This document shows, in pieces, positions 2,263-44,170 of a DNA stretch of 64,000 nt. Position numbers and translations under genes: made by a program. The first letter of the stretch is position 1, and each line of letters begins with the position of its first letter. The notes beneath the pieces are model-generated. The model saw only the letters and a program-made list of their open reading frames with translations. It was not told where the DNA came from and ran no database searches. Source of the stretch: Aphrocallistes beatrix (taxonomy: Eukaryota > Porifera > Hexactinellida > Sceptrulophora > Aphrocallistidae); NCBI GenBank assembly GCA_963281255.1, contig OY725491.1:1116001-1180000 (forward strand), read 5' to 3'.

Positions 2263-2284
2263 TCCTAGTTCCATATTTCCGAAA

Positions 2285-2470: not shown

Positions 2471-2612
2471 AAAGATATAGTGAGTAAATCGAATATGGAG
2501 AATACGAATTTGAAGCTAAATTGGGTGTATCTGTTAATGAGAATAAATGCTATTAACTGACTAAATAAATTAGTATTATAACTACTCGTATTACGTAACT
2601 AACTTAACTCAC

Positions 2613-5126: not shown

Positions 5127-5401
5127 CTATAGTATATATGCAAACTAGATCATTTGAAATCAATCCACACAATTACAGCATTTTAAATATGCATAATACT
5201 ATATTACAAGTATAAATAAAGTAAGCATTCGAAATCAAGCATTTATCCAAGATTTATTTCTATTCTGAGCGGAGAATTATCAGATCTAATGGCGAGAAAG
5301 GATCCTATTAGTGAGCTAGACACTAAAGACGAGTTGATGTTGATTCATATAGTATCAGAGGGTAGCAATGAGATGGTCAAGTTGATTGACATACCATATA
5401 C

Positions 5402-5459
<58 letters not shown>

Positions 5460-11400: not shown

Positions 11401-14400
11401 GTATAAATAGACAAATATTTGAATATTATCAGAGAAAATACATAACAGCTTAAGTCAACTATCTAAATGGATAGATAGTGCTAGATCCAATTAACTGGTT
11501 TACCCATTCGAATGATGAATTAGACCAGCGGTTCCCAAACTGGGGTGCATGAACCCCCTAGGGGTGCACGGGACAAGGATTCGTCCTTATTATTAGTCGT
11601 CCTTATTGCAATGACATGTCGGATCAATAGAGTTTTTCAGACTTAGGTGGGTCCTGGGGTGAACAAAATAACTTTTAGGTGTCAGGGGGTGCACGAAGTA
11701 AAAGAGGTTGGGAACCACTGAATTAGACATAGGAATAGATTCTGGTATTTTCTCACATTTAATCCAATTGATTTAGACTGAAAGTATTTGGAATAAAGCC
11801 AATCTAATAATAGAAATAAGGTCTACTTATTAACTAACCACAATATAGCCTAAATGACAGTTGGAACTTGCGTGAGTGCACAGGTTGTCGTAGAGACACC
11901 AGTAACACGGAGCAGGAGAGTTGGTGCAGGATTCACACCTTGAATAGAAACTGCAGTTGTAGAACGTGAAACCGTTTGCTTGTTCTGCGAACTCCAAACC
12001 TAGCTCAGTTGATCGCAGAGAAAAGTTTATTCGTTGGTAATCTAGGCGAAGGAGGAATTAAATCTATTTATTGAATTTAATTGATAGTGGTATTTATCAA
12101 GGGATTATCTAGGAGCGCGAGACGCTTATGATTTTATGCCCGAAAGTGTTTGGAGCGTGAAAATTTCGAACATTACCCAATTTATCCTATATCATACTGT
12201 TATTAATCGATTTAGGCGTATGAATATTTATGGTTTGAGACTAGGAGCGTATCCTGGAAGGCTGTATAATACCCTGGTATTTATCCATAGTTAAACTAAC
12301 CATTATTCAGGAAGTAGTTGGTAGGGACTGGACAGCTGATGGAGACAATTCCAGGGGTGTTGGGGCCTGTAAGATTCAGAGGCGAGTCAGACATGGAGAT
12401 GTTAGTGACGTTAGTTATGTATTGCTCAAATATACACTCGAATGTATGAGGAGATTGCAATTTAGGTAGGTTGGAGACGTTTACATTGATCTAAAGAGAA
12501 ACAGATTCATATAAGAGATATTAGGTTCTGTGAACTAAATACTTGCTTATCCATCCTATTTTCATCTACTCTGGCGAAAATCTAGCGCTTGAACATATGT
12601 ATGCCGTATGTGTACATGTAATTTTGGATGAGTTGAATCAGGGAGATTCACTCCAATTCACTCCACCAAGCAATATCTGGATCCGCTACTGGTTCTTTAA
12701 TTATTATACATGACAATTGCAGCTTTATTAATTAAATCTGTTTACCTGTGTAAGCTCTCCCACTTGAGCTAACATGGGGGTGACAGAGTTCAGAGAGAGA
12801 CAAGTGTTAGAGTTGTCTGTTATCCATCTTAGAGGAAGATCAGCATTCGCACAATCAGACCTATATTAAATGTATTGTGTATTCATATAAATACAGTAAG
12901 CACGATTATAAGTAACCATATGATAAAAAATAAACACATTCTAAACTCAACATGTTAGTTGCATAATAAAATATAATTGTTCGAAAATTCATGGCATCAC
13001 CATACTATACACCGCCTGCTATCGAAGACACTCAAGAAGTCTACACTGAAAATGAAATTTATTTTTACATCCAAAGACTACTATCACAAATACGCACCAG
13101 TCCCGGTGAGCTACGTTTTTCTGAGTTGGAATATGATGAAGACATCGGTAGATTCATTGAAAAATTAGATGGAATATTATCCGAACTTCAAAAAATATCT
13201 AACATCCTACAGGGATATTTTGATTCGCATTCCTATGTGGGAAATTACATGGTAGGTGACCCAAAAGAAATACTGAATCAAGTTAAGACTTGTCAGATAA
13301 TTTTAGAATCATACTTTCCAAAGCTAAATCGTATCAGAGGTAATTCAGAAAAGATCTACATGATCCTCATTCAGTTAGTGTTGGAAGGTGTTCAAGTGCC
13401 TCAGATGGAAGATTTCAGACGAGTACCACTACAAATGTCGATCACTAACATAGTACGAGCAGTTCAGGAAAACGACACTACACATCCAGTTGGAATTGTA
13501 GTAGAAAACATTGTAAAAATAATCATAGGATCACTTGGTGAGCGATTCGCAGAGTGTAAATACTATCACCGTCTTCTAGATTCAGCTGCTAGCATCATCG
13601 TAAGAATCGGTACGACCATATGTACCCTGACCTATCATCACTTTGAATTCCATAAAGATGCATGCAATAAAATATCTGAGTTCAAGAGAGAATTCGCTGC
13701 TTGTGGGATCAGAGAGAACCTGGAAAGAATCAGTAGATACCTCGACACAGCCGTAACGAATTCTCAAAGTGATGTTTTAGCAGGAGTAAAGCAAAGTCTT
13801 TGCCTAGTATGGGAATCACTAAAGAGTTATAAACAGAATTATCCTCATAAATGTGGCAGCGAGATTCTAAACGAATTGAGCAGACTTCCAGCCTGCAGTG
13901 GCCTTGTCCTGCCTATAGTAACCAAGGTGCAGTGTAGCAGCCAAGATGCCTGGGAGATTGTGATACAGCTCTTTTCCTCGCTACGTAATCCAGCCCTACT
14001 TGAACTGTGAGATCTAGACTAATACGTAGGTAATTACTGTACCTAGTAAGTTAGAAAAAATGTATTTAGGATCATTCCTTGCTACTACAATATTTTACTG
14101 TTTTACAATATTCTTATAATCGCTTTTGTAACAAAAATAATAATCTATACTGTCTCATTCTATGATCAATAGATGTTCCACATGAATCATGAATTGGTAG
14201 GATACCTTTTTAATGGAACGCCAACTTGAAGACTTTAGGCCTGTCACGAAATACGTATTATAATATTAGTTATCTATTTTACCATCGCTGCAAATACATT
14301 TTTGTATGTAGTATTGTTGACAGCGAGAACAATGCAACCTGATTACAAAATTGGGAGTAATTGCACCTAGCTACAGTGCTCCAACACAGTTTCTATGATT

Positions 14401-17400
14401 TTCGGTTATGTCACACGCAGAGGATAGACACTCCACAATAAGATTGTTGAAGTGAACAGACAGAGAGATGCATTTAATTTATTACATATTTCAGTTGGTA
14501 TTGTTATACATACGTATACCAAAACATATAATTAATCAATGTGAGCCCAGGCGCCAAAAGGGCGCCTCTGGCGGATAATTTGTGTCCGTCAGCCGCGCAG
14601 CGCAAGCAAGCGAAGCGCACTTGTACAAAAAGAAAATGGTAGAGTATAGGGATGTTGGTAGCTCAATTTCTCAAATCCAGGACGTATGAGAAACGAAACA
14701 AATGAATTACTTAGTAGTTTCACATTTTTATTGTTCTAATTTAAAAAATCGCAGTGGTTTGGTATCCATGCTCAGAGGCGTAGTTATATCTTTTTAGGGT
14801 GCGCACAATCAGACCTATCAAATGTATTGTGATTACTTTAGTAGCTATGATTGACACATGAATATTATAAATAACCATAATAAACCTCAGGAATATATGC
14901 TGCATGTTATGAGTCACAATATTGATTTGCAAATTCATGGCATCACCATACTATACAACACCTGCTCTCGAAGACACTCAAGAAATCTACATTGAAAATG
15001 AAATATGTCTTTTCCTCCAAAGACTATCACAAATACGCATCAGTCCCGATGAGCAGCAACGTTTTTCTGAGTTGGAATATGATGAAGATATCGGTAGATT
15101 AATTGAAAAATTGAATTGTATATTATCCGAACTTCAAAAAATATCTAACATCCTACAGGGATTTTATGATTCGTATTCCTCCTATGTGGGAAATTACATG
15201 ATGGGTGACTCAAAAGAAATACTGAATCAAGTTAAGAGTTGTCAGAACATTTTAGAATCATACTTTCCAAAGCTAAATCGTATCAGAGGTAATGCAGAGA
15301 AGATCTACATGATTCTCATTCAGTTAGTGTTGGAAGGTGTTCAAGTGCCTCAGATGGAAGATTTCAGACTAGTACCACTACAAATGTCGATCACTAACAT
15401 AGTACGGGCGGTTCAGGACAACAACGCCGCACATCCAGTTGGAATTGTAGCAGAAAGCGTTGCTAAACTAATAATAGGATCACTAGGTGAGCGATTCGCA
15501 GAGTGTAAATACTATCACCGTCTTCTAGATTCAGCTCCTAACATCATCGCAAGAATCGGTACTTCCATATTTGACCTAGCCTCTCATCACCTTGAATCCC
15601 ATAGGGATGCATGCAATAAAATATCTGAGTTCAAGAGAGAATTCGCTGCTTGTGGGATCAGAGAGAACCTGGAAAGAATCAGTAGATACCTTGACACGGC
15701 CGTAACGAATTCTCAAAGTGATGTTTTAGCAGGAGTAAAGCAGTGTCTTTGCCAAGTATGGGAATCAGTAAAGAGTTATAAACAGATTTATCCTCATGAA
15801 AGTTACAAGGAGATTCTAAAAGAATTGAGCAGACTTCCAGCTTGCCGTGGTCTTGTCCTGCCTATAGAAACCAAGGTGCAGTGTAGCAGCCGAGATGCCT
15901 GGGAGATTGTAATACAGCTCTTTTCCTCACTACGCAATCCAGTCTTACTTGAACTATGATATATAGACTAATACATAGGTTATTACTGTACGGTACCCAA
16001 GTTAGCAGGATATATATTACGAAAAAATCAACCTGTATTTAGGATAATCTCTTATTATTTGACGACTACAATATTTTACTGCTTTACAATATTCATATAA
16101 TCGATTTTTGTAACAAATATGAATCTATACGGTGTCTCATACTATAATAAATAGTAGATGTTATACTTCAATCGTGAATTGGTAGGGTACCTTTTTAATG
16201 GAACCCAACAAGACGTTAGGCCTATCACGAAATATAACATTAGCCTAGTTATTGTACCATCGCTGCAAATACATTTTTGTATGTAGTATTGTTGACAGCG
16301 AGAACAATGCAACCTGATTACAAAATTGGGAGTAATTGCACCTAGCTACAGTGTTCCAACACAGTTTCTATGATTTTCGGTTATGTTAGTATGTCACACT
16401 CAGAGGATAGACACTCCACAATAAGATAGTTGAAGTGAACAGACAGAGAGATGCGTTTAATTTATTACATATTTCAGTTGGTATTGTTATACATACGTAT
16501 ACCAAAACATGAACTTATGATCACATTATTGTATATGAATTGTGTGGTTAATCCACCTCGTTATCTGAACTAATGCTGAGGTGAAAGAATTGTTCGCATT
16601 GTATGCTGTCTCGATTGGTACTTAGCGAGTCTAAGTGCTTCAGGATGTGCCATGCAGTTTCACTCGAGCATTTCAGACTAGACATGATTGGAGATATTAG
16701 CCCGCGAGATAGCGCGTGAATCTTCATATCCTTAAACAGCTGTTCCCTTGATTTCCCGCTGTTATATTCCTCTGTGGTGAAGGATTCAAAAGAAATTCGG
16801 AATTGCTCGTATGTCTGGTAAAGATTTTTTAAGCTCACGAGTGCGACGGGGTTGTGATCAGAAATGGAGAATTCTAGCCAAGTATTGGTCGATTTCAGTT
16901 TTGTGCTCACTTCGCTGCTTTCTAACTCCTTTCCGAATTCGGCTACTTTGCCGAGGCAGAGTTCCAAGTCTTCTTTAAATGACATTACTTCAGATGATAT
17001 TCTGCGTCTGAAATATACACTAATAATATACTTCACGCGTCTATTATATGTTCGAAACATCAGGATATGATAGCTAGCGCAGTTTATAAGAAACTGTATG
17101 CTCCTCTTATTGAAAATGGTCCCAATCATCTGAGTGACATCTACCTCGTTAAGCATTCTGTTGAGAGAATCTGTGAGAGAGGATTGGGGAACTTGGAAAT
17201 CAGGGAAATCTGGTAGATCAACTTCAAACAGCAGGAAGGCACTTATTATCTGAAATATTTCGTTAGCTGATTGATTGAGTTGTTCTAAGTGGGACAATCC
17301 TGCTTTGATCAAAAGTTTTATTTCAATCAATTGTTCGTATACGTTTTCTGGACTCGGGTCTACTGCTTGAATCATGCTGTGAGCAAATATGCCAGTGCAA

Positions 17401-20400
17401 GACCATTTGTAATAGGAAATTAACTCTTGGATTTTGTCACCATTTGAAACCACGCTTTCAAGCATTTCAGACAAATGCACTCGAGACTTTTCCACGTCTA
17501 TTGAGAAGGATATTCTAGAGTAGCGATTAGATTTCAAACTCTCCAACACCAGACTCTGAATGGAATTAAGTTCCAAAGAATCCTCGAGATTACCCTCTTC
17601 CTCGATAGAAAATCTGGTGGCCATCTGTATTATTGAGTAGGGCACTGTTTATGTTGTTGTAGAGTGCAGTTTAGATGAACAAATAACAGTTATGGTTTTA
17701 CAGCATTAAGTGTATGTAGATTACGTATACAGAGGTATCTGATAGTAACAATGTGTAATTGAATTATAAATATCAGGGCAATCTGTATCAAACACCAATT
17801 CATTCTATAATTACTACGTATAGGTTAAACAATGAATTTTCTATAAAACCGAATACTTTCTCTCTTTTAAACTTTTAAGAGTTGTATTTGGTCTGCTTAT
17901 TCAATATATAGATATAACAATGCTCGCAGGAAACTAATTTTACGGACATTTACGTAACAAAATAGGTAGTTAAATACAAATATTTAACCAAAATATCTCT
18001 ACAAAGGACAACCATGTGATATCCGATGTAATAGAATATATTATTAAAGTAAGAATTCAGTTACAGGATGTGATGTATTATTCTACTCTTAGAAATATTT
18101 TTTTCAAAAGTTTTATTTCAATCAATTGTTCGTAGACGTTTTCTGGACTCGGGTCTACTGCTTGAACCATGCTGTGAGCAAATATGCCAGTGCAAGACCA
18201 TTTGTAATAGGAAATTAACTCTTGGATTTTGTCACCATTTGAAACCACGCTTTCAAGCATTCCAGACAAATGCACTCGACACTTTTCCATATCTATTGAG
18301 AACGATATTCTAGAGTAGCGATTAGATTTCTTCACTTTCCTACAAATAGCCGTTCTGACTGAATTGTGAAAATTAGCTAGTATTTCTGTCTAATCACTGA
18401 TTGATAAATAAGATCTATGAAGTCTGATTAATTTTAGAAAATATGGAAATAAAATGGGTTCAATTCACTATAACACTTTGCTCTTTATGATCCTAGTTAA
18501 CTACAAATTAACAATTAACCGATTTAAGAGCTGTGAAAATGTTTATAAACTTATTTATAATTTGTTCTAAATTTGCTCAGTAAAAACTGCTACAGTACAA
18601 TATTTACGTAAACATTCAATGATGTAAAACCATAATACTTAACTCAGGTACCCAGAACTACCAGTATTGGGGCAATGCTAAATTTCGTGTGAGTGATGGC
18701 GACTAGATTCTCCATAGAAGAAGAGAGCAATCTGGAAGATTCCTTAGATGCTATTTCCATCAGGAGTATGCTGATAGAGAGCGTCAAGGAAGATAGCTTC
18801 TCTAAAGTATCATTTGATGAAGACGATTTCCGTCAGAAGCTAACAGGAATGCTAGTCAGTGCCAATGCTTCTATAGACAGGATTGGGGAGCTTATTTCCT
18901 ACTACAAATGGTCTCTGTCAGGCAACATAGCACACGGCATTGTGGAGACATTTGAACCAGATCCTCAGTATGTTCTCGAGCATATGATCCAAATAAAAAT
19001 ATTAATCAAAGAAGGTTTATCGCATTTGGAAAAGCTTTATCGATGCTCGGACGAAATTTTTCAGATGATAGGATGTCTGCTCATATTTGGAGTTAGACTG
19101 CCAGACCTCCCTGACTTCGAGGTACCCCAGCCGTCCCTAACTGACTCTCTGGCCAGAATGCTGAGTTCGGTTGATATAAAGAATATCGTAGAAAAGCTAG
19201 CTAGTACTCAATGCATGCGAATTCTCTTCAATACACTCACACACTACATCTTAACGCTGAGGAATTATCGGAGAAACGTGGGAAGATTCTTAGAGAACTT
19301 ATCTGTTGAATTCATCAGCCGTCAGATCTCATTTGAAGTGAGGCAAATTAAAGAAGGGATGGAACATTGCCTCGACAAAATCTCACAATTCGGAATCATG
19401 CTAGAGAGCAGTGAAGTGAGAGCAAAGTTGAAATCTGCAAATACAATGTTAGAAGTTGCCATCTCTCAAGACTTTTCCATCGCAATCCTGAGATCTATCT
19501 TTCAATCCTACAGCCAATTCCAAATCTCCTTGAAATGCTTCAGCGAGGAGGAAAGAAACATTGGGAAATCAAAGGATGAGTTATTTCAAGAGCTCAAGAA
19601 CAACTCCATATCCAGTGGGTTGATATTTCCTATTGCTTCAACGCTTAAATGCTCCAATGAGAACGCTTGGAAGATTTTGAAACATTTGGATTTGAGAAAT
19701 GCAAGGCAAGCCAGTATAGCATACAAACCCTTAGATGACCTAGATTAACTCCAGTTATTTAGTATATGATAGTTTACTAACTATTTTACTCAATATTAAA
19801 ATATGTGTACTATGCTTTGGGATTCATGAATTGAAAAAAGGCGGGACATAATGGGGAAATTTCATGTGAAAGCGGGACACTCGAGAAAATTGGCTCAATG
19901 GAAGAGTGAAAAAAGCGCGACGTCCCGCCAAAAACGGGACAGTTGGCAAGTATGTCCTAGAGTGTGATGTCTAAAGGCACGAATAGTTGTCGATAGTATA
20001 TACCTTCGTAAACCCATTTTGCAAACTCAGGAACAACTAAATCCCAAATTATGTTAATTGAGTCTAGAATCTAGATATATATCCCAATTACATTTTTATT
20101 CCACTACAAGCGCGCTTCGCTTGCTTGCGCTGCGCGACTGGCGGACACTTTGTGTCCGCCGGAGGCTCCCTTCGGTCGCCTGGGGTCACATTGGTTAATT
20201 ATAAGGGAGATAACATCTCTAAATACGTCTGTCCTACTGTTATAATCTATTTCGCACGAAAAATCACCAAATTTATCAATTTTTAAAATTTTGATGAGTA
20301 ATGATGACGTCATAAAAAAAGTGATGAGTCATCATTTTTTGATGATAGCGATATCATATGTGAGGTATGTTAGTATACAGATTCTATTAAAATTTCACCC

Positions 20401-23400
20401 TTCTATCTCCTATAATGGCTGAGTTATGCCCGAATAACTGTGTTGCTTAACTTTTAAAAATGTGACAATGACGTCATAATTCCATGATGAGCCGACATTT
20501 TGGTCTGAGCTCAGAACTTACTGGAGCCATAGCCAAAAGACTCCCACATGCCAAAAATCAGCCTTCTGCGCCCGGCAGTTTCTTCAATCAATTCGTTACA
20601 TATATATATATATATATATATATATACTATATACAATAATCGAGTTTTAATAGTAAGGATACTCCAGATTTTATTTTCCTTAGATGACAACAATAGCTGT
20701 AGATCGATATTTGAGCGTCTAAGATTACAATTTTTTTCCCCAGACCCCCCTTACCGTCGCTCGGATATTTAAGACACCAATATGTATTGGAAACAGAATG
20801 TAATAGACTCGGATGGATGATCAAAACATGGGTACATAAGAACATCATTGAATTTAGAAGCTGCATAATAAAAAGTAACACCTGTCAGAAATTATTTATT
20901 TTAAGTATTCTCTTCATTGACTGGAATGTAATAAACGAGAAATATAAAAAACAATTCACATAAATAGATCTATTTCTTCAAATCTGATTTCAAGCCGCGT
21001 CTCCGCATTTAATTTAAACAACCAGAGCTATTCAAGGTATTTTTCTAAACAATGGTATGGAGGAACAAAGCCATAGTTCAAGCATATATGCATATATTTG
21101 TCAAGACGCGTATATAAGAAATGTCAACTTGATGTAAGGAATAATAATACTTCTACGTTAATGGCGTCATTACATCCTATATCAGTTTCCCCCGAAGAGT
21201 TACAAGAGTTGGATACAGCTACTGTGCAGGAAGGAATTCAAAATATCATCCAAAATCTAACTCTTGCTCCCAGTCAAGAGCTGACAAGTTTTTCCAATTT
21301 AGAATTTGATAAAACCATCCATGAATTTCTCAAAAAGTTGAATGATATGATATTCAAACTTGAACAGATATCCAGCATCCTCACAGAATTCTTAAATGCA
21401 AATTATTCTTTTGAAAGATTAGTGGCATCTAACAAGGATAGTGCACAAGAAACACTCGACCAAGTTCAGGAATGTATCAAGATAGCAGAGTCATATATCC
21501 CAAAGATCCGTACAATCCGGGGTAACTCTGAGAAGGTCTACATTATTCTTATCCAATTTGTCTTAGAAGGAATAGAAATACCTCAAATGGAGGATTTTGG
21601 CCCACAAGTACAAATATCTATTTCTAATATCGTTAGGCACTCGATTGAGGGAGGTAATACAGCGCACCCAGTCGAAGTTGTAACAAAAAAAATTCTAGTA
21701 CCATTAATATTCGCGCTCGCCAATCAATTTGCAGAGGCTAATAGATATCTAGTTTTTCTAGATGCAACTGTTTCCTTTATCACAAGAGTCAGTTCTTCTC
21801 TAGTTAAATCAACTTGTCAACTTTTGATTTATCGCCAGGATTCATACGATAAAATTTTTGAGTTCAAAAGGCAATTCACTGAACTCTGTGTAAAGAAGCA
21901 TCTAGAAAGGTTAAGAGGCTATCTCGACCAAGCCATTACGAACTCACAGAGTGGTGATACGATTATTGTTGCCGCGATTAGGCAATCTCTCTGCCAAGTA
22001 GAGGAATCAGTAAAGAATTCTAAAAAGCAGGATACTAACAAAAGCGAAATAGACATTGTGAAGGACATGAGCGAAACTCCAAATTGCTCTGGTCTAGTCC
22101 AACCTATAACAACTAACATGGGTTGTAGCCTAGAGCAAGCATGGAGTATCGTAATTCACCTATTCTCCTCACAACGTAGAAATCCAGCTCTGCTCTAAAG
22201 TGCAAGCTCAACTCTCCCATACTGTGCGTCATAACTCTAGCTCCAGCCTTAGTGCTTGATAGAATCAATTAGTATAGATAGGTAGTAGCTGACTTCTAAA
22301 TATAGTAGTACGTATTTCCAAATATATACTGTACTTACTTATTCATTATCTCAAAATAAATAAATGCTCAATGTATTCTAAGCATCATTAACTGGCAATC
22401 AAATTCAATGAGATCTATTCTCGTATATCAATACAGGCAAATCAAATTGAATATTCGAATGTGTTGTATCTGAAATTCTGAATCAAATTACTTCAAAAGT
22501 ATTATTAAAATGCATTTTATTTCAAGTCATCCCCTGGTAACATAAAGATATTTTTTCATTTGCACAATGTTTGTAATCGGAACTATCAAATAATTCCAGA
22601 CAGATGAGCATCTTGTGACTGATCGGTAAACATCCTGTTATTGTACTTATTCATATTAATTAATTCATCTTCTTGCGGTCAAAACTTGTAATGGTTGTCA
22701 AATCTTCAATTCGAAATTCTAAAATTAGGTTATTTAATGAAGCTGACTATTAACTCAGCCTAAAAGAAAATGCAACATGTTACTAAATTATGTGCAGCTC
22801 GCATTTTGAAAACAAAAATTTGTGCACAGCGCTAGCTGGAGATTTGTTTGTTACTCAATAAGACCTACATAGATTAACTCCAGTTATTTAGTATATGATA
22901 GTTTTTACTAACTATTTTACTCAATATAAAAAGATGTGTACTATGCTTTGTGATTTATGGATGGAAAAAGGCGGGACATAATGGGGAAATTTCATGTAAA
23001 AGTGGGACACTCGAGAAATTAGCTCAATGGATGAGTGATAAAAGCGCGACGTCCGACTAAAAACAGGACAGTTGGCAAGTATGTCCTAGAGTGTGATGTC
23101 TAAAGGCACGAATAGTTGTCGATAGTATTTTGCAAACTCAGGAATAAGACAGCAAAAAATGAAGAGCTTGATGTAAATACTAAGTTATTCAATTTTTGCA
23201 GTCAACTTCAGTGAAACGAGTTCTCGAGACAATGAATTTGTAACTATGGTAGAATTCGCCTATTAGCAACTCCCTTATTAACAAATCGCTCTATTATCCC
23301 AATTTTAAGTACCAAGTGTGGATTTTGTATTAATTCTGTTCCTTTATAAGCAACTTTCCGTTAATTTTTCCGTTAATAAAACCTGAGTTCATAATAATTT

Positions 23401-26400
23401 GCAAATTTCACTGTCAAGTATAGTATTATAAACTCATTTTTACGATAAATGTAAATCTCTACGGTTATTATGGGGTATTCGACCATGTACAGTTCAGAGT
23501 TTATTTTTAGAAAATTATTTCTCGATGTAGTACAAGTGTGTTATATTAATTGATGATACAGTCGGACCTACTCTAACGGCCACCTCTATACAGCGGTCAC
23601 CTGGACATAGCGACCACCTAAGAACAGTCCCATCCGTTTTACTATAATATTGAACCTGTGTATAACGGTCAGTGGGTCATCTTCTCAAAGCGGCTAGTGA
23701 CCATTCTTTTTGGGTCCCTTGAGGCCCTTTAAACTGTCTATGACGGCTACATCATGTTTAGAACTACATACTGGCATATGTTTAGTACGATCCCTATTCC
23801 GAAGTAACATAAGTAGTAACGCACATCATTGAGTACATTTATAAATTGTCACTGCATCGCATCGTTACAACCTGACACTATTCTGGATCCTACCTGTATA
23901 TAAAGTCATTTTCGATCAGTCCCTTGGGTGAGCTTTATAGACTGGATTGACTGATTTACACTTAACTTCTCTCAGTAACTAACTGGTCCTGCAGTATCGG
24001 TCTGTGTCTGCCGAAATGTTTAGCATTTTTATGTGATTACCTTATATACTTCTAGGTTTATTGTATCGCTTCGATAATGCTTGAGTCAATAACAATAGCA
24101 TGGTATAGAATAATAGGCGCCAAATGTGGGGGTACCTGGGGGGACGTGGCGCCGGGTGGAGCAGTGGAGGAAGCTGTAGTATGGCAGGACTTCACACAAA
24201 CTTATAGGTTACAACTAAACCCCAAATTATGTTGTTAAGATATATATCCCAATTACATTTTTATTCCAATAAAGTACGAGATTTTCTTTTCTCTAAGTGA
24301 CAACAATAGCTGTAGATCGATATTTGAGCGTCTAAGATTAAATTTTTTTTCTGAGGGGCTTGGCCCCCCCCGGTTTTATTTTATTTGGCGCCTATGTATA
24401 GAATATATAAATATTAGTTTTTGCAATAGTATTTTTAATACATACTCGTATAACTAATTGAATTAGTATGTGATCTAACCATCAATATCTTAGCTTATCT
24501 TAATTTACAAGGACCTATGGAACTGTTCTGATATTCTTTAAGTATGAGATACAATTACGACTGTTTTAGGGGATAAAATAAACGCAGCACTAAGTGGAGA
24601 ATTGCGCATTTCTTTACAATAATCATTTCACTTTTGATCGTTCTGTTGACACATCTTTGGAGATTCTTTTCCTTGTACGATAAGTTTGTCTGTTGTTGTA
24701 TCTTCCTCATTTTCTAATATTACTTCATAAAGGAGTCGGTCTAAGTTCTTCAATTTCACACTGAGACCGCATTCAATGAGTCTTAATTTGATTTCAAATA
24801 GTACTGTCTTACCATTGGACCAATAATAATAGTACATTGTCCTAACAAACCAGAAGACACCAGTCGCGAATTTTAGGTATTTAAAAAGTCCAGGTAATAG
24901 AGGAATTATTTCGAAATACCCACGAACTATGTCAAGCATGTTTACATATACTGGCTGTGAGATATTTTCTTGAGCGGGTTCCTTTATGATGGGAATGAGA
25001 TTAAATGGTAGTATTTTAATGCCAGATATTTGCCTTTCAAGAAAAATTACATTTTCGGGATTCTTTATTATCGATAACTTGATGGTCCTCTGATAGGACT
25101 GCAAAGTTTCAGTATACTGCTCAATGTCTTTTAGAAGATCTCGTAATTCACTTGAAGTTTTTGGAATATTCCATTCGGTCGCAATAGCATTTATTCTTCC
25201 TGTCATCTCAGCAAGTTGGTTTGATGTATCTATTACTTTGCAATGGATATTTAGAAAAAGTTGATAAGTTTCGGGGTCGGAGAATCTAGGATGAGAGGTG
25301 CTGTCATTGGGTTGATCCAACTCAAAACTGTTGTTTGAAGTAAAAGTCGGTTCATTCAATGGAGTTGCCATTATATTTCGCGTGTGTTTAGAGAAATTGA
25401 ATGCATTTATTTATACAGAAAATTAGCAATGTTATGGTTTCTTAGCATGTTTAGTTATTCTCCTGTTTACATATTTATTAAGTACCGTATGTATTCAGAA
25501 TATTTGATACTTTCATTACGTAGTAGTACGTAGGTAAACTGAAGTTGAACCTGAAAGTAATTGTGGAAATTGTTTAAGAAGTATGTATTTTTATTTCGTT
25601 GATACTGTTGAAAACCCCAAAAGCACTTAATTAAATATTAAATGACATTATGAATAAATAGAACTAAAGTCATAATATTATTGTGTTCAGTGTATTTTGT
25701 ATTTTTAGGATCATTGAAAGATATTTTGTTCCTATTCGCGTAATTATGCTAATAATAAATATATTAGTGAGATGCTTATTGTTGGAGCGGTTTTATAGTT
25801 ATTCAATAATCTCGACATTGTTCCATAATATGTATTAGTTATTTTCATCAAAGAGCTGATATCTTGCAGATTCAAATGCACGAGTGAAAGTAAATTTCTG
25901 CTTCTAACCTTCCCAATTTTTAGTAGAACATTTCATAGTTTTTTAAGCCTTTTGAAATCTTGTCGTATACTGCTTTCAAGAATATTCCACCTGCCCCCAT
26001 CCCGACCAATACTATAGTCTCAATATTAGGTATCATCGCGACACTACTCTGCATAAAGGACATTAGTTCATCTAGATTCTAGACGTTATGAGTATTTTTT
26101 TCATTTCCTGCTTTACAGATACCTTTGAATACAAAATATATTACTGAAGTGTGGCAAAAAGTTTCACTGTTAAACTTAGAAATTTGAACATCTGCAATAA
26201 CATTTGGCAGAGACATGTGATATAATCATTTGCAAAATATTCTCCCCTCTAGCAGAGAATTCTAAACTTCAGTTGGTTTTGAATCTCTTTTAGATTTCAC
26301 TAAGTTATTTTCAGTTTTACTCGTCAGTAAACATTTGACGAGCATTCCTTATATAATGCGTGTTCTATAAATGAACTCTTCTATTTGCTCAATCAAAAGA

Positions 26401-29400
26401 TATATTGATAATCTGGCTTCCTCAACTCAATCATATATGTTAAAAACCCATAAACGTATTGACAAGAGTTTTAAAGTAACATTATTTAACATTGTATAAG
26501 GGCAATGTAAAAGGCAACAAACACCAATCAATTCAAAATGCTTTCTTCAAACACAACTCCACAATCTGCTCTAAGCAAAAGTGAAAAAGTCTCGTTCCTC
26601 GATGCAGTACTCTCCAAAGTGGAAGTCAAAGAATTTACCAAAAAAATTATAACAAAGATCTATGAGATGATAGATGAATTTGATCAAATATCAGGCAAAC
26701 TACATGAACACAGGAACTCAGCTCTTGGATTAGCTATAGCTCATCCAAATCTCGATGACGATCTGTACGATAAAACAGCTTTTAAAGAAGTTGGATGGTG
26801 TACGAAAGCCTTAGAATCGTTAATCTCAAAAATAGAGCAAATGCAAGAGAATTCACATGATAAATATTTGGTTTTACAAAATTTGATATTTAACATACAA
26901 ATTCCGGATATAACTAAGAAGTCCGAATGCCCCTTTCGCGCATTTAATAATCAGCTAATAGAACTGTCTTTCAAAAAGAAAGTGGAACGAATTAACGATA
27001 TCATAAACAAGAGTTTAGCAGAAACTAAAGATAAAGAATCAAAGAAAAGAGCAGTTTTTGAACAAACTTTCAAGCAAATACAAGAATCAATCAAGACTTT
27101 TAAAGTAAAGTATCCAGGCAAAAACGAATGGGATATTGCAAAAGAAATGAGCGAAAACCCTTTATGCTCTGGCCTTGTCCAGCCGCTAGCTACCAGCCTA
27201 AAATGTAGCCAACCCTTAGCATGGGCGTTGATAATGGAGGAGTTCTATAAACCATGAAAGCAAGTCAGAGTAATACTGAGTAGGATATAATAGTATATTG
27301 TCTAGTGAATTAGTTAGGTTACGAAGCTAGATTTGCACATTAAATTATTGTTCCAAATATGTTTTATTTCAGATCAAAAAATAATCAAAGCACTAGCAAC
27401 TGACCCAGATATCAAGGGAAACAGTATTGCAAGCAATTGAAATTCCACTGTACTACAAGTGAATTGGTTACATCTCTAATTAGCTTCTATCAATATTACG
27501 GATGGAGCATATATTGTAACAAAATCTTAAGAAATACTATTAATATCATTGTAATATACAGTCGAACCTGCTATAACGGCCACTCTATATAACGGTCACC
27601 TCTCTATAGCGGTCACCAATGAACAGTCCCGTCCGAAATTCCATAATATTGAACCTGTGTATAGCGGTAACCTGCTCAACGAGGCCAGCGACCACCCGTT
27701 TGTAGTCCCTTGCTGACCCTAAAACTGTGTATAACGGCCATCACCTGTCTATAAAGGCCACTACCTGTCTATAATGGCCATCACCTTTTTCACCTTTTTA
27801 TGAGTTTATTACATGACCTGTTATGAACGATAAACAAGTTTCATGTAATTACTTCAAGTAATTGATTTCTAAAAATTTTTTGCACTATGTTGATACCTTT
27901 TGGGGATTAAGACAATCACCTGTATATAACGGTCACCTGTGTATAACGGTCAATTTTGTCCAGTCCCTTGGGTGGCCGTTATATACAGGTTCCACTGTAG
28001 TTAGAATTAGAAAATAAAATTGTAAACGTGATACTAGGATAATTTTACTTTGACACAACTACTACCTATTCAGTTAACTTATGAATAAGTATATGGATAA
28101 CCAATTATCAAATATTCTGAAACTTTTCAATCGCCAAACTACAGTTCGAAAGGATCGAGCTGCTTTTATGGAATTTCTTAACACCTTGAGATATGAAGGT
28201 AACATTTCAGATTGTGGTGACTTACAAATTTATTCCTCAATCATCACTAAAGAGTTTACAGACCCTAATTTGGAATCGCAACAAGCATTGGCATTTATTT
28301 CTGGTTATGCAACCTCCTCTTTAATGAAGAAATTCATCAAGACCTTTGAATTATGTAATATCTTATTTCTAACTCAAGATTAATTGCTTGATATTGAGGA
28401 AATCCCATCTACTTTAAATTGATTCAGCTCTCTGATCGTGGTGGACTAAAGTGGCCTTCGAAAACTGTTTTAGACGTAGTTTTTTTTCCCGTTGGAGCAT
28501 ATTTAACGAGATAAAGCAGCCTCCTATCATGTTAAAATACTTTTTGACTTCCAATTATCGCACAATATTAGTCCAACTCACTCTCTTAAAACTTGAAAAT
28601 GAAGAAAATGATGAAGTAGCCTATGAGTGTTTCCAGTGTAATGTAACGGGAAGAGAAATGTTAAATAAAGTGTTAATTGTTACAAGCAATTGTTTTCTTA
28701 ATAATACAGCAAAAAATATCAACCCATCAGCTACTCATGCCCTGTCCAGAGAGCCTGAAAGGAAAATTTTAAAATTTAGTTCAAAGTAATATTAGATTTT
28801 TCTTTATCACACGTTACATTATGCATACTTATATGTTTTATATCTTTAATGGCGATTATTAAACCACATTTTAGTAAAATATCGATGATATCTGTATGGG
28901 AACTTTATTAATTAATTAAAACTCGAAGTACTCGTGCTTGAAAAATATATTATTTATAAGTAACTAGGTAACTGGAGCAACAATATATGCTAAGAAACCA
29001 TAATATTTGTAGTTATATGATCATTATTGACATCGTACGTAATATCAATATATCCTGGCTGTGATACATAATGGCAAATAATCTGCAAGAATCTTCCTCA
29101 ACTCGACTTTCTGCACAGAACACTTCTTACAAGAAGATTCTCCTGAATTGGATCAACGCATCGCACAGTCAGGCAGGAATAACATTATTCAAAACATAGA
29201 ATTACTCATTGATGGATCCCATGCTACTTTTTCTGATTTAGAAATTCATCAATTTATTCTGGGTATCAAGACTAAAATAATTGAAGCACTAGATCAACTT
29301 GACGAGATATCAGGAAACATAAATGCTATTGCAAGCTATTGGAAAATTCCAGATACAGCGATTGAATTGCGAGATCTTCGTGAAGACATCGATTTTTATA

Positions 29401-32400
29401 AGAATACATTGGAATCCTATAACAGCAAGTTAACTAAAATCAGAAGTAGTTCAGAAAATCTCTATCTTCTCCTTAAACGGATGTTAGGCATTCGAATCCC
29501 TCAGATGCCGGAAATTAGATTTCCACCACCAATTTCTCTCACTCGAGTCATGATAGAATCCATTCTAGAGCTAAATGGCCCACAGCCAAGAGAAAGCATG
29601 TTCGAGTTAATAATATGGGAACTTGGAAACCAATTCGCAAAGTGTAAATTCTACGAGAAACAGTTTGTTGCTGCAGGCTGCCGGATTGCAAGTATTGCTT
29701 ACAAGAATTGGTTTAACAGTCTATAAAGAATACAAATCACAGAGCGACGCCAAAGAACAAATATCAGAAATTAAAATAGAATTCATTAGATGTGCTCTCA
29801 AAGAGAAATTGGAAAGAATAAACAAATTCTTTGATCAAGCGATAGCAGAAAGTGAAGGTAGTCTAAAAGCAGCGATGGATCAAACTCTCAAGCAAGTAAA
29901 AGAATCGATCAAGATGGAGAAAGAGATCCATCCTCATGAAGATAATTTAGAAATACTAATGGAAATGCGCAAAATCCCACTTTGTGCTGGACTTATTCTA
30001 CCTCTAAAAAGCGCATTGAATTGTAGCTCACAGCTAGCTTGGGAGCTGATACTAGAGCAATTTCGCAAACCACGTTCTCACAGTGCACTTGAGATGCACT
30101 CTCCGACATTATAATGATAGTTACTATAGTATAATATTATATTTTCTAGATCTAGTTAGCATTAGTCTCCTAAATAAAAATAGTAGATATAATCGACAAT
30201 GACTCTACATGTATAGCACTAGTACTACGTATAATTAAATTCCTATTTGAAAAATGATTTATTACATAATTATTCAGATTATTTTGATTAGGTAGCTGGG
30301 CGCATGGTAATGTCTCGGGGGCGCTGCATTTGTCATAATTTTCTAGTTGGCATTTGTCGGAATAGTCGTGACTGTTACTTGTCTGAATCAATATTAGGTC
30401 AACTGCCACTTGTATGAATAAATATTTTAACTCACATCTACACAAAACCCTTCAGTTATTATTTCTCATATACTATTAATCATTGATATTTATACTACTA
30501 TGATATTCTAACTATCATTAGGTTAGTCAAACAATCGTCACCAAATCTTGGTGTAACTCAGCTTAATCACGGTGTAACCACCGAAAAAATATTAACCAAA
30601 TATTGCCCACGCTGCAGCGGCCGACCCAAATCGTGGTGTAACTCCCAAAATTCGTGGTGTAATTTTTACACCACGATTGCCCTTAAAAAAACCCTGCCCA
30701 TATGGACCATGGTTGCAAAAATTATTCTTACCATTCTAAAGGTAGTAAGAATACAGTCCTAAATCTTAGACACAAAATACATTGCACCAATAAAATGACA
30801 TATGGCTTCAAACTCAAGTGTAAGTTAACTTAATATAAATTTATAGAAACTACGTACGTGTATTTGTTTATTATTGTCGTTTTTCAATAACATATCCAAT
30901 ATCACTTATACTTGGACATGTTAGAAAGCCATACAATTTTTGCACAAGTGTCAAGTTGGATGAGTTGTTCTGACAAGTTTAGTAACTAATAAAATATAAT
31001 GGTAACTAATCAATCAACAGAACCTCTTTCATCGAATACAACGAGTAATGACAGTACTCAAGATGCTTCTTCTAGCCTAGGGTCAAGTATTGCTAACATA
31101 ATGGAAAACCTGGGAACTTTATCTCTAGTAGCAGATCACACAATACTTTCTAAATCAGAAGTAGGTAATTGTATTCGAAATATGGTGGATAAGATCTCGG
31201 CGAGTATCAACAAACTTGATACTCTATCAGGCATAGTAAAAAATATGAGGTGCAATCGCGAATATGGGTATCACATCATTGAGTACATTTATAAATTGTC
31301 ACTGCATCGCATCGTTACAACCTGAAACTGTCTATTTTGACTCCTACCTGCATATAAAGTCATTTTCGATCAGTCCCTTGGGCGACCAGGGAAAAAGAAT
31401 GTGAAATTGCAAAAGAAATGAGCAAAAGCCCTTTATGCTCTGGCCTTGTCCATCTAGCTACCAGCCGAAACTGTAGCCAACACTTTGCATGGTAATGTTG
31501 AAAATGGAGTTCTATAAACCATGAAAGCAAGTCAGAGTAATACTGAAGGGTAGTATCGGATAGTAAAGGTAGTATAGGATAGTATCGGATAAGATTGCAT
31601 AGGATAGTATATTTGTCTAGTGAATTAGGTAGGTTACGTAACTATATTTACTCATTAAATTTTTGTTTCAAATGTTTTATCTCATACTAAGAAAATAATA
31701 AAAGCACTAGCAACTTGACCAGATATCAGAGGAAACAGTATTGCATGCTATTGAAATTCCAGATACAACAAATGAATTGGTTATACCTCTAATTAGCTTA
31801 ATGTTACGCGGATGGAGCATATATTGGATCAAAATCTTAAGAAATACTATTATCATTTTAATATAATTAGAAATAGAAAATAAAGAAAATAACATTGTAA
31901 ATGTGATACTTAGGATGATTAGATTCGCTGTCTTGCCTTGCCTTGGCAACTTCGAAGTTCTGAGACAACTACTACCTATGCAACTAACTTATAAGTATTT
32001 GTTAAGATTCTAGGGGACCTAAAGTTGAACTAATAATAAATCTCTTATTGACTGCTTTATTAAGCTACTCTTTTTTCAATATATCTTTCATTATCATCCA
32101 AGCCAACTCTTTTTCGCATTTCAATGCTTCTACTACTGGGTATATTAGTACATTGAATGCTGGATTCTCTGACATTTCTTCAAGAATTTGCTCCTCATTT
32201 TTTTCCTTGTTTATTTCTGAAGACTTGCTATCTCTGATTGAAGTCAGTACTTGATTGTAGGAGTTTCTAACTACTACAATGCTATTAGCAGTTCTTCTTT
32301 CGTTAGCAAGTTCTTTCTCAAAGTTAGACAACACTGTTGTTAATTTGGCGCTTATCCCACAGTTAAAAAAATCCGTTTCGAATTCCCCTAATTCCTTGTA

Positions 32401-35400
32401 AAACGCTTCATTGTTCTGTAAACATCTTAAAGTCTCATCACACAATGATTTTAAGAACACTCCACCGACTCCTATGCCAGCTGTTATTGCAAGTTTCATA
32501 TTATATGACAAAAGAAAGCAGCTAGAAAGTGCGACTATGAGACATTTCGTTGCAGAACTATCCTGAAGATATGACATTAATTCTTTGACTTTTTTTGAGG
32601 GCATTGCTTTAGTAAAAACGTTGGCTGCAGATATCGTGTTAATGGAAGATAAGTTGAAGTGCTTCAACTGAGGAATCTTAACTCCTTGTGTCAACATTTC
32701 GCAGAGACATGTGATGCATTTGTTTACAAACTCATCCTCCTCACCTAGTAGATCGAGGAGGAGATCAAGCTGTTCTCTTACTTCTTTCAAGTTTTTCAAA
32801 ATTCTTTTCGGTTGTACTTGATCTGTAGCAATCATATTACGAACATTCCCTAGAACTCCTATTCTCTCAATAAACGCTTCTATCTGCATAATCAGTTGAT
32901 TGATCTGTGCAAGGTAAGCGAAAATCTCTTTCTTGGTTTCATGTGTTTTTATTTTATCTCTGAGGACGGAATCGTCACGTTGGCCACTCTGTATGAGACT
33001 TAAACTTTCTAAAACCTCTTTAATGACATCTTCTAGACATTGTTTGTCAGATACTCCTGAATCAGCCATGATCAGGTAGAATTATAAATAGGAATAATCA
33101 AATTATAAAAAGTAAACAATCAACAATTAATAAGAGACACCAATATTGGAAACAGAATGTAATAGTCTCGGATGGATAATCAAAAATGGGTACATAAGAA
33201 CATCATTGAATTTAGAAGCTGCATAATAAAAAGTAACACTTGTCAGAAATTATTTATTTTAAGTATTTTCTTCTCATTGATTATGTAACAAACGAGAAAT
33301 ATAAAAGGCCATTCACATAAATAGTATCTATTCAAATCTGATTCAAACTGCTCTCCCGGATTTAAATAGAAATTCCTAATATTTTTATCGCTATTTTATA
33401 TTTTTAATTTACTGAATTATCTACTCCTCTATGTATGCAATTCTTATCAACGGTACTCACAAATGATACCTTAAACACTTTACTTTAAAACACTAAAGCA
33501 AATACCAGAATTATCAGAGAAACTTGAGGAGGTTCTTAAAGAAATTTACTGTTGATTTTAACCTAAAATTTCAGATACGTATTATAGCATACGTAAAGGG
33601 TGCTGAATACATATTCAAAAGTAAGAACTAGCAGTAACTAGGTAACAAGATGTTTGCTAGTTTTGTGATCATTTATATTATAACACATATGCATTGATAA
33701 TACGTCACGCTATCTGAGAAACAGAATGGCAACTCATTCTCAAGAATCCTTCTCAACTCAATCACATAACTTACAAGAAGATTCTCCTGAATTGGATCAA
33801 CGTATTGTCCAGTTAGGCAGGAATAATGTTATCCAAAATATATCAAATTTACTCATTGATGGAGCTGGTGCTACCTTTTCCGATTTAGAAATTCATCAAT
33901 TCATTCTGAAAATCAAGACTAAATCGAAGCACTAGAGCAACTTGACAAGGTATCAGGAAACATAAACGCTATTGCAAGCTATTGGAAAATTCCAGATACA
34001 GCGAGTGAATTGCGAGATCTAAGACATCGATTTTTATAAGAATACATTGGAAAAAAATACCATTACCCAGGGTGATTTATCCTGTTCTCATTGACGATAA
34101 AATTGGATTATTGAAGCTGATTTCATTTCCAAGAGAAATATTGAAAGCATTTCGTAAATACTGTACTATATTTAGTGTTTTTATTTTCTAACTAATCTTG
34201 ACAAACCACAAACTTGTTGTCAGAGGTTAGAGCAAGGTTGTTTAGAGCACAACGTTAAGTGCATTATAATGGCAAATTCCAAACAATCAACATCGCTTTC
34301 TTCAAATGAAAATACTCCAGAAAATTCTTCCGTCCTGGGATCAACAGTTGATATAATACGTAATGGGAAACTTTGCAGAATATACAGCTCTCTCCAAAAT
34401 AGAAGTCACTGAATCTCAAAAATTTGTAAAGAAAATCTCTGAGATTCTAGACAAATTGGATACAATATCCGGAAGAATACAATGTTTAGCAAACATAGTG
34501 GATTATCGTGACTCTGAAGTTGAGTGGTGCAAGAAGACCGTATAATCATTTATTTACAAAATTGAGAATATACAATGGAATTCACAAAGCATCTCCGTGT
34601 TTTTAGAAAATCTGATGCTGGTTAATATTCAAACTCCAAATCTAAATGAAAAATGCAGTATACGGATTATAAAAAATCAGTTTAAGATATCGGATATTAA
34701 AAGGAAAATAGAAAGAATCAATAATTTCCTAGAGATGAACTTAGCAAAAAGCAAAGGTAAAGAAACGACAAGAACAGCTCTTGAGCAAACCTTTAGGCAA
34801 GTGCGAGAATCAGTCAAGAGTTCTAAGGAGAAATATCCTGGCAAAAACGAGTTAGAAATTGTAAAGCAAATGAGCGAAAACCCTCTCTGCTCTGGTCTTG
34901 TCCAGCCTCTAGTTGCCAGCCTAAAATGTAGCCAATACCTCGCTTGGGCAATGATACTGGAGCAGTTCTCTAAACCACCTCCATAGTTCCTCCTTTAGCT
35001 TTCAGAGAGTATTATGAGTAGGATAGCATTACTTGTACTAGCTAGTTGTTAATTAGGTACGTAGGTTACATGACTATATTGCATTTGATTACAAAATTAT
35101 AGTTTTAAACATATTTTAATGGGTCTCAGCTGATAAAGTATTGATTCGTATAGTAACACTTCTGTAATAATCGAATCTAATTTTAACAGTGAGTATACGG
35201 TAGATACATAGTTTCACATCTTTGGTTGCTATCTTTCTGCAGTAGAGATGCTCTATCGGTCTTTGAATAAATATAATCTTAACTCAATTTATAGTTGCAT
35301 CATAATTAGAAGTTAAACATGCTAAAGAACCATAAGATTGCTAGCTATGTGTTTAGATAAATAAATAATTAAGCACCCGAAATACTACAAAATATCATGG

Positions 35401-38400
35401 CAACTCCAATACAGGAATCCTTCTCAACTCAACTTTCTGAACCATTGCGTTCTCCCCAAGAGAATCCTCCTGAATTGGATCAACGAGTGGCAAGATTGGG
35501 AATGAGTGACGTCATTGAAAACATAGCAAATACTCGTATCGATAGAACCCAGACTGCATTTTCCGATTTAGAAATTCATCAATCTATCCTAAAATTCCAA
35601 GGTGGAATAATCGAGGCTATAGATCAACTCGACAAGATATCAGGAAACATAAAAGCGACCGCAAGGTATTGGAAAATTCCAGAGACATCGAGTGAAGTGC
35701 AAGAACTTCTAAAAGAAATCGATTTTTATAAGAAAACTCTGGACTCCTATACTATCAAGTTAACAAAAATCAAAAGGAGTTCAGAAAATCTATATCTTCT
35801 CCTTAAAAGGATATATGGTGTTCAAATCCCCCAGATGTCGGATTTTAGATTTCCACCAGAAATTCCTCTCACGCAAGTTGTAATAACATCGATATTGGAG
35901 CCAAATACCTCAGAACGAACAGGAAGCATGGTCGAGTTGATAGTAAAAGAATTTGGAAATCATTTGGCAAAGTGCGATTCCTATGAAAAACAGTTCATAC
36001 TGTATGCAGGCTGTAAAATAGCGAATATTGCCCTCAAGATTGGTGCAGCATTATTTGAGAAATACAAATCAAAGAATGAAGCTAAGCAAAAAATATCTGA
36101 AGTTAAATTAGAATTTATTAAATGTGAACTCAAAATGAAATTGGAAAGAATAAACGGATCCCTTGAAAGAGCTATATCAGAAAGTGAAGGTAGTCTGAAA
36201 ATGGCGACAGAACAATCTCTCAAGCAAGTAAAAGAATCGATTGAGAGTCGCCAACAGAGTAATCCACATAAAAGTGAAATGGTCATTGTGAAGGAATTGC
36301 GCGATTCTCCACTTTGTGCCGGACTCATCCTTCCTCTCAAAAGCGCTCTGAACTGCAGCCCAGAGCTGGCATGGGAGCTTATACTAGAGCAATTTCGCAT
36401 ACGACCTCGCAGTGCATTTTAGATAAGTCGTTGTATTGTATTTGTACCGCAAGTGCTAGCTCGTTATACACATAGCACATGTACGTGTATTCTATCTTCT
36501 AAATTGTAATTTGGCCCTTTAATTACTAAGTACAAGGTCTCGTGAAGAAGAGTTGCTGTGGGATATCTTGGATAGATAAGACCTCTTAAGTGGGAGAGCA
36601 CTGTACGGCGAAAATATGCCTACTCTCCCATTCCCCACTTATGATATTGTACGTAACCACAGGATATTAAGCAAAATGGTTTGGATCAGGGGCTGTGCTA
36701 GCCCATCACTGGTACGACACAGATGGGCTACATATTTCTTGAAAAAAAGTTTGGTTTTTTGATATGCAATTTCGCTCATTGTTAGACTATTTAGATCAAA
36801 GTGGTGTCAACACAGATTATCTGAAAATTATTTTCTAATTCAAGTCAGGTCAAGTCAGGAAGCAAACTTGTGATGAACTGCAAATTGTGTCCAGAAACCC
36901 ATTCTCCTACCACTTTATCGATGAGAAACCATACTTTATTACTATTTTTTTCAATTATCGATCACGCTTGTTAGAATGCCATAAACTTGTTGACAAATGT
37001 TAAATGGGATAATTATGTTTTGATAATAAGTAAAAATATAATGGCAACTCCTAATCAAACTGCAAAACCTCTACCATCGGACACAATCAATACTACTACT
37101 CAAGATGCTTCTTCTGTCGTGGGATCAAAGATTTCCAACATTATGGAAAACCTAGGAACTTTATCTCTAGAGGCAGATCACACAACGCTTTCTAAATCAG
37201 AAGTGGTAAATTGTACTCGAAATATGGTGGAAAAGATCTCGACGAGTCTAATCAAACTTGATACTCTAGCAGGCAAACTTCAAAACAATAAACGCTACTT
37301 AGATTCGCAGCCTATTAAGCTAATTACAAGACTATATGGAGATGTAGAGTGTTATAGGGAAACTCTAGAATATTTTATCACAAAAATAGATCAAATAAAA
37401 GGATGTTCGGATAATACATATTTGTTTTTACAAAAAATGTTACTAAGCATAGAAATCCCAGAAATCAATATGAAGTTACAAAATCCTTTTCACAATCTTC
37501 TAACACAATTTATAGAATCGTTTCTTGAAGAGAAAATAGAAAGAATTAAAAAATTCCTAAAAACGGCCCTGGCAGAAACTGGGGGACGAGAAAACATGAC
37601 AATAGTTCTTGAGAAGACTTTCAGGCAAGTGCGAGATTCAGTTAAGAGTTCCAAATCAAACTATCCAGGCAAGAATGAGTTGGAGATTGTAGAGGAGATG
37701 AGCAGACATCCTCTATGTTCTGGTCTAGCTCAGCCTCTTGCTACCAGCCTAAACTGTACCAAGTACTTGGCATGGGGGATTATACTCGAGCTCTTCTCTA
37801 AACCGCCTCCAAAGTTCCTCAGTTAACATTCAGAGTAGTAATGGGTAGGATTGCATTATTTAGGACAGTATTACTATGTTAGCATTACGTATTTTTCTTA
37901 GTGAATTAGGTAGTTAATATATCACTATATTCTATTGCATTTACTCATTAAACTATTGGTTACTTGAAATATGGTGTTTAATAATGGGTTCCAGCTTGAA
38001 TTATAATTGAATTTAAGTTTATATACAATGAACATTAGAAAGAAACGAAATAATATTATACATTATGAAGTACGTGATAAAAGTGTGTGCAGATTTTTTA
38101 GATTTTTACGTAAAAATAAATATAATTTGATTGACTAATAGCTGCGTATATACATAATGGACACAACCTACTTTCTGGTGCAAGTCTCAGAGAGAGAACA
38201 GTAGCCACAAACTGGGTCTATCGTCTCCACACAGCTCTGACAGGACTGATAAGCTCCGCAATGGATGAGCTCCACTCGATACAGCAAACTGTCTCTTGAA
38301 GCGTAGAGGTGCTCTGTCCTGCTATCAGGGATTATCTTACTGAAACTCGTCTGTAGGACCTGGTTGAGATCAATGTTCTCTATCAGGTTCAAAACTGTCA

Positions 38401-43828: not shown

Positions 43829-44170
43829 TGTAAGTGATAGGGTTGCTATGTTAATGGATGCAAAATATGCGAGTTAATTTTTAAAGAATTAATAAAATAT
43901 TATTATCTAAAATTTAAAAATAAATTCAATACAGTGGTTTTGCAAAAATGAAGATGCACTTTTTTAGACTATGCATTATATGGATTGTCTGTCTTACAAA
44001 ATTTAGTGTAATTTCGCCCATGAAATATAATTGAATTGAGAACTGTATCTCTTTCATGTATCATATATATACAATAAGAATGTGAAGTAAAATATGCACT
44101 TGCTAGCAAAAAAACAATATTTACAACTAAGAATGTGGTACTAACTTCTGTAAGTGAGTGAGTGAGCGAA

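Follow-up and report, generated by a model that had tools for sequence, protein, structure and literature searches.

What a whole family of intronless genes is doing inside a single intron of a receptor gene is the question raised by a 64,000-nucleotide stretch of the genome of the glass sponge Aphrocallistes beatrix (G000:C4:1116001-1180000, hereafter the window; mean G+C 36.6%; the genome comprises 100.5 Mb in 28 contigs). Between two exons of a plexin gene on the minus strand lies an intron of 25,311 bp (12861..38171), and within it are 16 loci of one protein family, here called family A, on both strands: nine are full-length, one (24628) is open but truncated and six are broken. Every copy detected by the searches made lies within this intron, and an upstream element is shared among the genes. 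A second intronless family, family B, lies 11 kb from the intron in the same window, and we consider what its probable kinship to family A might say about the function of both.

That the two flanking exons belong together, through a split AAG codon and a split first PSI domain, was part of the original prediction, and the splice sites and the joined reading frame agree with it. The donor (GTAGGT) lies at 38171 and the acceptor (TATAG) ends at 12861; on the minus strand the exon before the intron ends in ...AGA AA at 38172 and the exon after it opens with G TCT GAT TGT from 12860, and joining them restores both the codon and the domain (...CGYCSLSETCTRK|SDC...W), the 5' half of which gives a PSI profile match. 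The upstream exons (38172..43873, minus strand) carry a signal-peptide-like start and a Sema-like region, both recognized by eye, along with that 5' half. The downstream exons (4252..12860, minus strand) carry the 3' half, a further PSI domain and TIG/IPT domains (PSI/TIG exons at 7.5-12.9 kb), with a transmembrane-like segment, again by eye, at about 4.3-4.5 kb. A plexin cytoplasmic-domain profile matches in four rows at C4:1105907-1111677, left of the window on the same strand; two of the four contain stops inside the matched stretch, as when a match overruns the end of an exon. From order, position and strand we infer that these rows and the window exons make up one plexin gene of about 54 kb, 25.3 kb of which is the array intron. 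For scale, excerpts of a glass-sponge genome paper give mean intron lengths of 194 bp and 516 bp on two compared scaffolds (PMC10282587).

The predicted inventory of about 16 related intronless loci, ten open and six broken, was reproduced, with the qualification that one open frame is truncated. Ten open frames of at least 200 residues occur in the intron, against none in each of 30 first-order Markov shuffles, and a chain of BLAST pairs at E < 1e-10 connects all ten, with identity falling to about 20%. A tree of 14 rows, with the database relative P0001 left out and two rows being pieces of one broken copy, gives three sets. One comprises 12991..14010 (+, 339 residues), 14937..15959 (+, 340 residues) and 21161..22198 (+, 345 residues). 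Another joins 35397..36422 (+, 341 residues) with 24628..25371 (-, 247 residues), the broken, frame-shifted 35397 relative at ~29071..30096 (+) and the short forms; 24628 ends before the C-terminal signature and is considered truncated because its homology to 35397 continues past its stop codon. The third holds 16548..17624 (-, 358 residues), 18696..19748 (+, 350 residues), a broken relative of 16548 with only the N-terminal part (18099..18362, -) and the strongly diverged 32065..33069 (-, 334 residues). The two open short forms, 26538..27257 (+, 239 residues) and 37041..37826 (+, 261 residues), lack a central stretch, and two broken copies resemble them (~30996..31492, +, and ~34269..34992, +, the latter with an internal stop). 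Further broken copies are related to 32065 (25854..26296, -) and to 35397 (~33726..34064, +).

The close kinship of several neighbouring loci fits local duplication, with inverted copies also present, and the occurrence of related open, truncated and broken copies side by side bears out the earlier view of tandem birth and death within a host intron. Other parts of the original description need trimming. The family was called expanding, and there is indeed one young pair, 12991 and 14937 (83% protein identity, synonymous divergence, dS, about 0.11-0.13), but the next-closest open pairs are just 40-50% identical. Likewise, in the ten-protein alignment the C-terminal Cys...Ala-Trp of the proposed shared signature is found in nine of ten rows, being absent in the truncated 24628, and the proline of the IPQ block is nearly invariant, but Cys-x-Gly-Leu appears in only six of the ten and is not universal.

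Genome-wide searches with four family A members returned 12, 20, 12 and 12 match rows at E <= 1, and all 56 fall in C4:1129.0-1153.8 kb, within the intron; these rows include self matches, and the scoring covers the best candidates, so very distant copies could escape. Protein-database searches, which find relatives sharing exact words, gave three family A matches, all from a second public assembly, apparently of the same species. One of them, P0001, shares 99% identity with 12991; P0002 is similar to 14937, and P0003 is the protein of the window's 24628 frame. Part of the array, at minimum, is therefore present in that assembly too. A published report of family A or of this array was not found in the open-licence literature, judged from listings. 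We also observed short dispersed repeats between family members (23584-23669 and 27583-27668, about 80% identical), which contain GCGGTCACC-like words.

The heptamer AACCATA occurs eight times in the intron, both strands counted, and all eight copies lie in sense orientation 64-114 nt upstream of a family A start: one at 12914..12920 (+), upstream of 12991, and the others, by first base and strand, at 14873+, 17697-, 18628+, 25439-, 28996+, 35328+ and 36927+. Measured against the starts of the ten open and four broken copies (two broken copies without a recognizable start were excluded), AACCATA came out best among the 3,936 7-mers that occur five or more times; about 2% of strand-positions satisfy this placement. 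CCATA was first spotted by eye, and a k-mer ranking of the ten open upstream regions that was not told of it placed AACCATA first among 7-mers, at seven of ten, with CCATA at nine of ten; 32065 is the sole open member without CCATA. The computed 7-mer probability is too small, because duplicates share history, and common inheritance may account for the element within close groups; in the young pair, 115 aligned upstream bases are 60% identical. Upstream of family B, between -30 and -120 (some stretches being shorter than 120 nt), ACCATAA and A[AC]CCATA occur at none of nine starts and CCATA at two of nine, and the B gene 51377 has AACCATA at -127, just outside the scanned range. We regard AACCATA as a candidate promoter element, kept while the proteins diverged to 20-30% identity, and the family A genes may be independently transcribed.

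Protein-level constraint on family A is visible. In the young pair the ratio of nonsynonymous to synonymous divergence (dN/dS) is 0.60 by our own Nei-Gojobori script (95% bootstrap 0.38-0.96), and Biopython gives 0.62 (NG86), 0.69 (YN00) and 0.75 (maximum likelihood); the earlier expectation of a non-neutral ratio in this pair agrees with a value below 1, though the upper bootstrap limit is 0.96. Older pairs give 0.35-0.44 (12991/21161) and 0.46-0.52 (26538/37041), and 16548/18696 gives 0.23-0.25, near saturation and without an NG86 value. Gaps are also distributed unevenly in the young pair, with three single-codon gaps in the coding alignment (338 codons) and 11 gap runs where 532 bases of the 3' flank align. 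The substitution divergence of that flank (Jukes-Cantor 0.127) does not exceed dS, owing to some 200 nt that are 97-98% identical, the remainder being 82-84% identical. A block 3' of the two genes (14275-14534 and 16250-16510) is 95-99% identical, more than the genes themselves, and these 260 nt have no further copy in the genome, just these two places; the near-identical stretch could be due to gene conversion or could be a conserved element.

Family B is represented in the window by an open gene of 365 residues with a Gly-rich hydrophobic hairpin (51377..52474, +), a broken copy in three overlapping frames (49029..50202, +; 49029-49472, 49451-49891 and 49849-50202) and a second broken copy (53258..54194, +). 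A single family B query gave 39 match rows, which are pieces and not genes: 35 in C4:748.6-819.1 kb, two in the window and one each on C6 and C17 (the latter at E 0.1). The main cluster is thus 70 kb long and lies about 310 kb away on the same contig as the array. A protein-database search for family B, which scored the 8,000 candidates with the most shared words, gave seven relatives, six from the second assembly and one (P0007) on a 1,398-base contig of other source. Reading the flanks of the large cluster did not reveal an intronic setting; by eye they hold a USP19-like gene at one end and a further single-exon family at the other. Beside the cluster we noticed two related single-exon frames (L082 1095-2311 and 5326-6450; C4:820.3-825.7 kb) that by eye look hydrophobic-rich and receptor-like. 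The family B starts at window positions 49029, 51377 and 53258 and at L075 1291 are directly preceded, by eye, by a splice-acceptor-like AG/AGG; these four starts might follow a 5' untranslated intron or receive a spliced leader.

Family A is a single family that probably does not stand on its own: profile comparison suggests that it is probably kin to family B, the two forming one superfamily related along its length. A global profile alignment of A and B spans 290 columns with a score of 30.4, which was reached by none of 40 column shuffles (maximum 6.0), none of 40 block shuffles (13.1), none of 40 circular shifts (28.6) and not by the one reversal (4.1). In this alignment the C-terminal part of A, with its pattern Pro ... 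Met-Ser or Leu-Ser ... Cys ... Cys-Ser, lies opposite a similarly patterned part of B. Local profile scores are weak, at different but collinear places.

Both families are modelled as long helices, a low-confidence centre, further long helices and short C-terminal helices. A central apolar element between long helices is present in family B, by hydropathy and by the helix order of the low-confidence model, and is weak, displaced or absent in family A. In B, 11 of 12 rows have a central apolar segment (best 19-residue Kyte-Doolittle mean 1.86-2.75), the twelfth being an N-terminal piece. Among the eight longer A proteins the peak is 1.27-1.68 and is central in six; the open short forms 26538 and 37041 have no peak of 1.2.

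The family had been described as having no known domain, and our scans concur: none of the ten A proteins reaches a Pfam cut-off and none of the four scanned against NCBIfam cut-offs reaches one, the best of 15 A rows there being a single row at E 7.8e-4. PADLOC, for which no cut-offs are given, matches one A row best at E 2.8e-4. No confident transposon, viral or housekeeping profile match for family A emerged from these three collections. A PADLOC 2TM profile matches 32065 at E 2.8e-4 over 52 residues, and SLATT matches stay below cut-off (SLATT_4 in 32065, 18.8 against 55 bits; SLATT_6 in L073, 11.1 against 100). ApoL is absent among the matches of ten A proteins (E <= 10) and seven B proteins (E <= 1), and is not among the 25 of 33 families listed for a 16-member B scan. 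In family B, the NCBIfam profile for alpha-xenorhabdolysin A matches two of 12 rows, 51377 at E 4.1e-7 and 49451 at E 7e-4, and none of three reversed controls; the best stretch of 51377, residues 196-260, covers the end of the hairpin and the next helix. We do not claim membership in the alpha-xenorhabdolysin A family, since the match is below cut-off, and take it as a lead to a pore-former-like mechanism. PADLOC LeoBC matched three of 12 B rows (best E 1.2e-7, for 51377) and was set aside: two of three reversed controls also match (8e-4 and 2.7e-3), so composition contributes. We likewise discounted isolated weak matches to Gcn1_N (26538; E 2.1e-4, 21.2 against a cut-off of 26.9 bits), a DNA polymerase III epsilon model (one A row, E 7.8e-4), Halogen_Hydrol (two B rows, E 3.8e-4), rve_2, an integrase core (one B row, E 0.0047), and NheA (one B row, E 0.3).

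We propose the following explanation tentatively; taken as a whole the chain is possible, though we would not call it probable. A lineage-restricted intronless family A would reside and duplicate locally in the plexin intron, most units with their own AACCATA, and would be the intron-confined branch of a larger superfamily of which family B, helical with a central Gly-rich apolar hairpin, is the other branch. B-type proteins might insert the hairpin in a membrane and oligomerize via the flanking long helices, and this action would perturb or permeabilize the membrane for intracellular defence or self/non-self recognition. A-type proteins would retain the helical scaffold but with a hairpin region that is weakened, and in the short forms missing, and could work alongside the membrane-active members as partners, as regulators or as decoys. 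We suggest a role in defence or recognition because of the apparent lineage restriction, the tandem turnover and the analogy with published single-exon expansions. We find it tempting to go further and speculate that immune effectors of an alpha-helical, membrane-perforating type arose within this animal lineage as a system of its own. Tandemly arrayed, intronless genes of one superfamily would encode them, the hairpin branch supplying pores and the plexin-intron branch, its hairpins reduced or lost, regulators or decoys, and a single intron would give an entire gene family its own place to recombine; but we rate that stronger version as unlikely.

Several of our own results count against this proposal. 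Single-sequence searches of the genome with A or B queries found no link between the families. The margin of the global profile score over circular shifts is small (30.4 against a maximum of 28.6), and the local score of 27.5, reached by none of 40 column shuffles, none of 40 block shuffles and not by the one reversal, is reached by 33 of 40 circular shifts, which leaves it without weight against them. The hydropathy peaks of 16548 and 18696 come before the centre. The structure models of A and B are weak (mean predicted local distance difference test, pLDDT, 60.2 and 57.9; predicted template modelling score, pTM, 0.47 each), and their matches to known folds go no further than common helical arrangements. 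The alpha-xenorhabdolysin A match scores 29.6 bits against a cut-off of 125 and is found in two of 16 B sequences (none of the four P0005-P0008) and in none of 15 A rows. AACCATA is missing at the starts of 21161 and 26538, which have CCATA only, and of 32065, which has neither; six of the 16 copies are broken; and the differences between the young pair by codon position (28, 28 and 31) come close to a neutral pattern.

Could family A have no membrane role at all? Its members might be soluble coiled-coil scaffold or adaptor proteins, a lineage-specific regulatory family whose kinship to B amounts at most to scaffold ancestry, and we consider this somewhat unlikely while taking it seriously. 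The short forms without an apolar centre fit such a reading, as does the fact that only 32065 (1.68) exceeds a Kyte-Doolittle mean of 1.6, and, among solved structures, the family A profile matches a designed coiled coil best (E 2.4e-4); yet the global A-B alignment crosses the hairpin region, and six of the eight longer A proteins retain central apolar segments. It is also conceivable, if decidedly improbable, that the proteins shape or fuse membranes in a SNARE-like or IncA-like manner and are not pore formers.

The remaining readings concern where the array came from and whether it still matters to the sponge. Broken copies, with one more truncated, and the near-neutral pattern in the young pair are what one might expect of a decaying array of non-functional duplicates, but nine full-length frames remain at about 20-50% identity outside the young pair, dN/dS is 0.23-0.52 in three older pairs and the upstream element is conserved, so we hold that reading to be very improbable. 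Remnants of a mobile element or endogenous virus, inserted in the intron and then duplicated, would also be intronless, on both strands and partly broken, and one B row has the weak rve_2 match noted above. This origin seems to us the most far-fetched: Pfam at its cut-offs assigns no A protein to a transposon, viral or integrase family, no relative was found in viral contigs or prokaryotic genomes (one protein per scan, with close relatives reachable only), the four family A queries found no copies elsewhere in the genome, and intron repeats of at least 60 nt are mostly family parts, with a few short interspersed pieces besides and a single 115-nt inverted pair.

The plexin gene seems to host further nested genes, as between its exons there is also a single-exon frame (5865-7247, +) that weakly matches a TRAF-type zinc finger (E 6.4e-5, 24 against a cut-off of 27 bits). 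A class C G-protein-coupled receptor-like gene (1-3396, -; ANF_receptor E 9e-24, 7tm_3 E 3.4e-8) is flanked by the transmembrane-like plexin exon and, outside the window, by the rows of the cytoplasmic-domain profile; it and its presumed host share a strand.

Why should such an array matter? With every detected member in one intron, young pair, diverged members, short forms and wrecks together, it offers a compact and bounded case of gene-family birth and death, and it poses two testable questions: how a receptor gene copes with 25 kb of other genes lodged in a single intron, and whether helical membrane proteins of this lineage's own take part in its defence.

The intron-nested array is a large example of a known arrangement, since both a nested cluster and glass-sponge tandem single-exon clusters have already been published; the protein family itself is undescribed. 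An intron of Drosophila dunce holds Sgs4 and the ng genes, a nested group of several short, related genes without introns, and the wider ng family shows duplications and copy-number change (PMC10835880). As there, several homologous genes sit wholly inside one intron of an unrelated host, here plexin; unlike the dunce cluster so described, the sponge array has 16 loci on both strands, a helical family without N-terminal hydrophobic peaks and no copy detected outside the intron. Closer to home, excerpts of the Aphrocallistes vastus genome paper describe a compact genome with many nested genes and tandem expansions of mostly single-exon genes considered species-specific, one of which carries AIG1 domains with a suggested immune link (PMC10282587). 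Those clusters are not described as filling one intron in section 6 of that paper, and AIG1 is not among the Pfam matches of the ten A proteins. With the ClyA family (alpha-xenorhabdolysin A, YaxAB, AhlC) the likeness is a central apolar element between long helices, at the level of sequence and model and in family B only; those are bacterial toxins, whereas the families here are intronless animal nuclear genes with a profile match below cut-off. What is unusual about the sponge locus is the size of the array, a strongly diverged family confined to a single intron, and proteins that have as yet no name.

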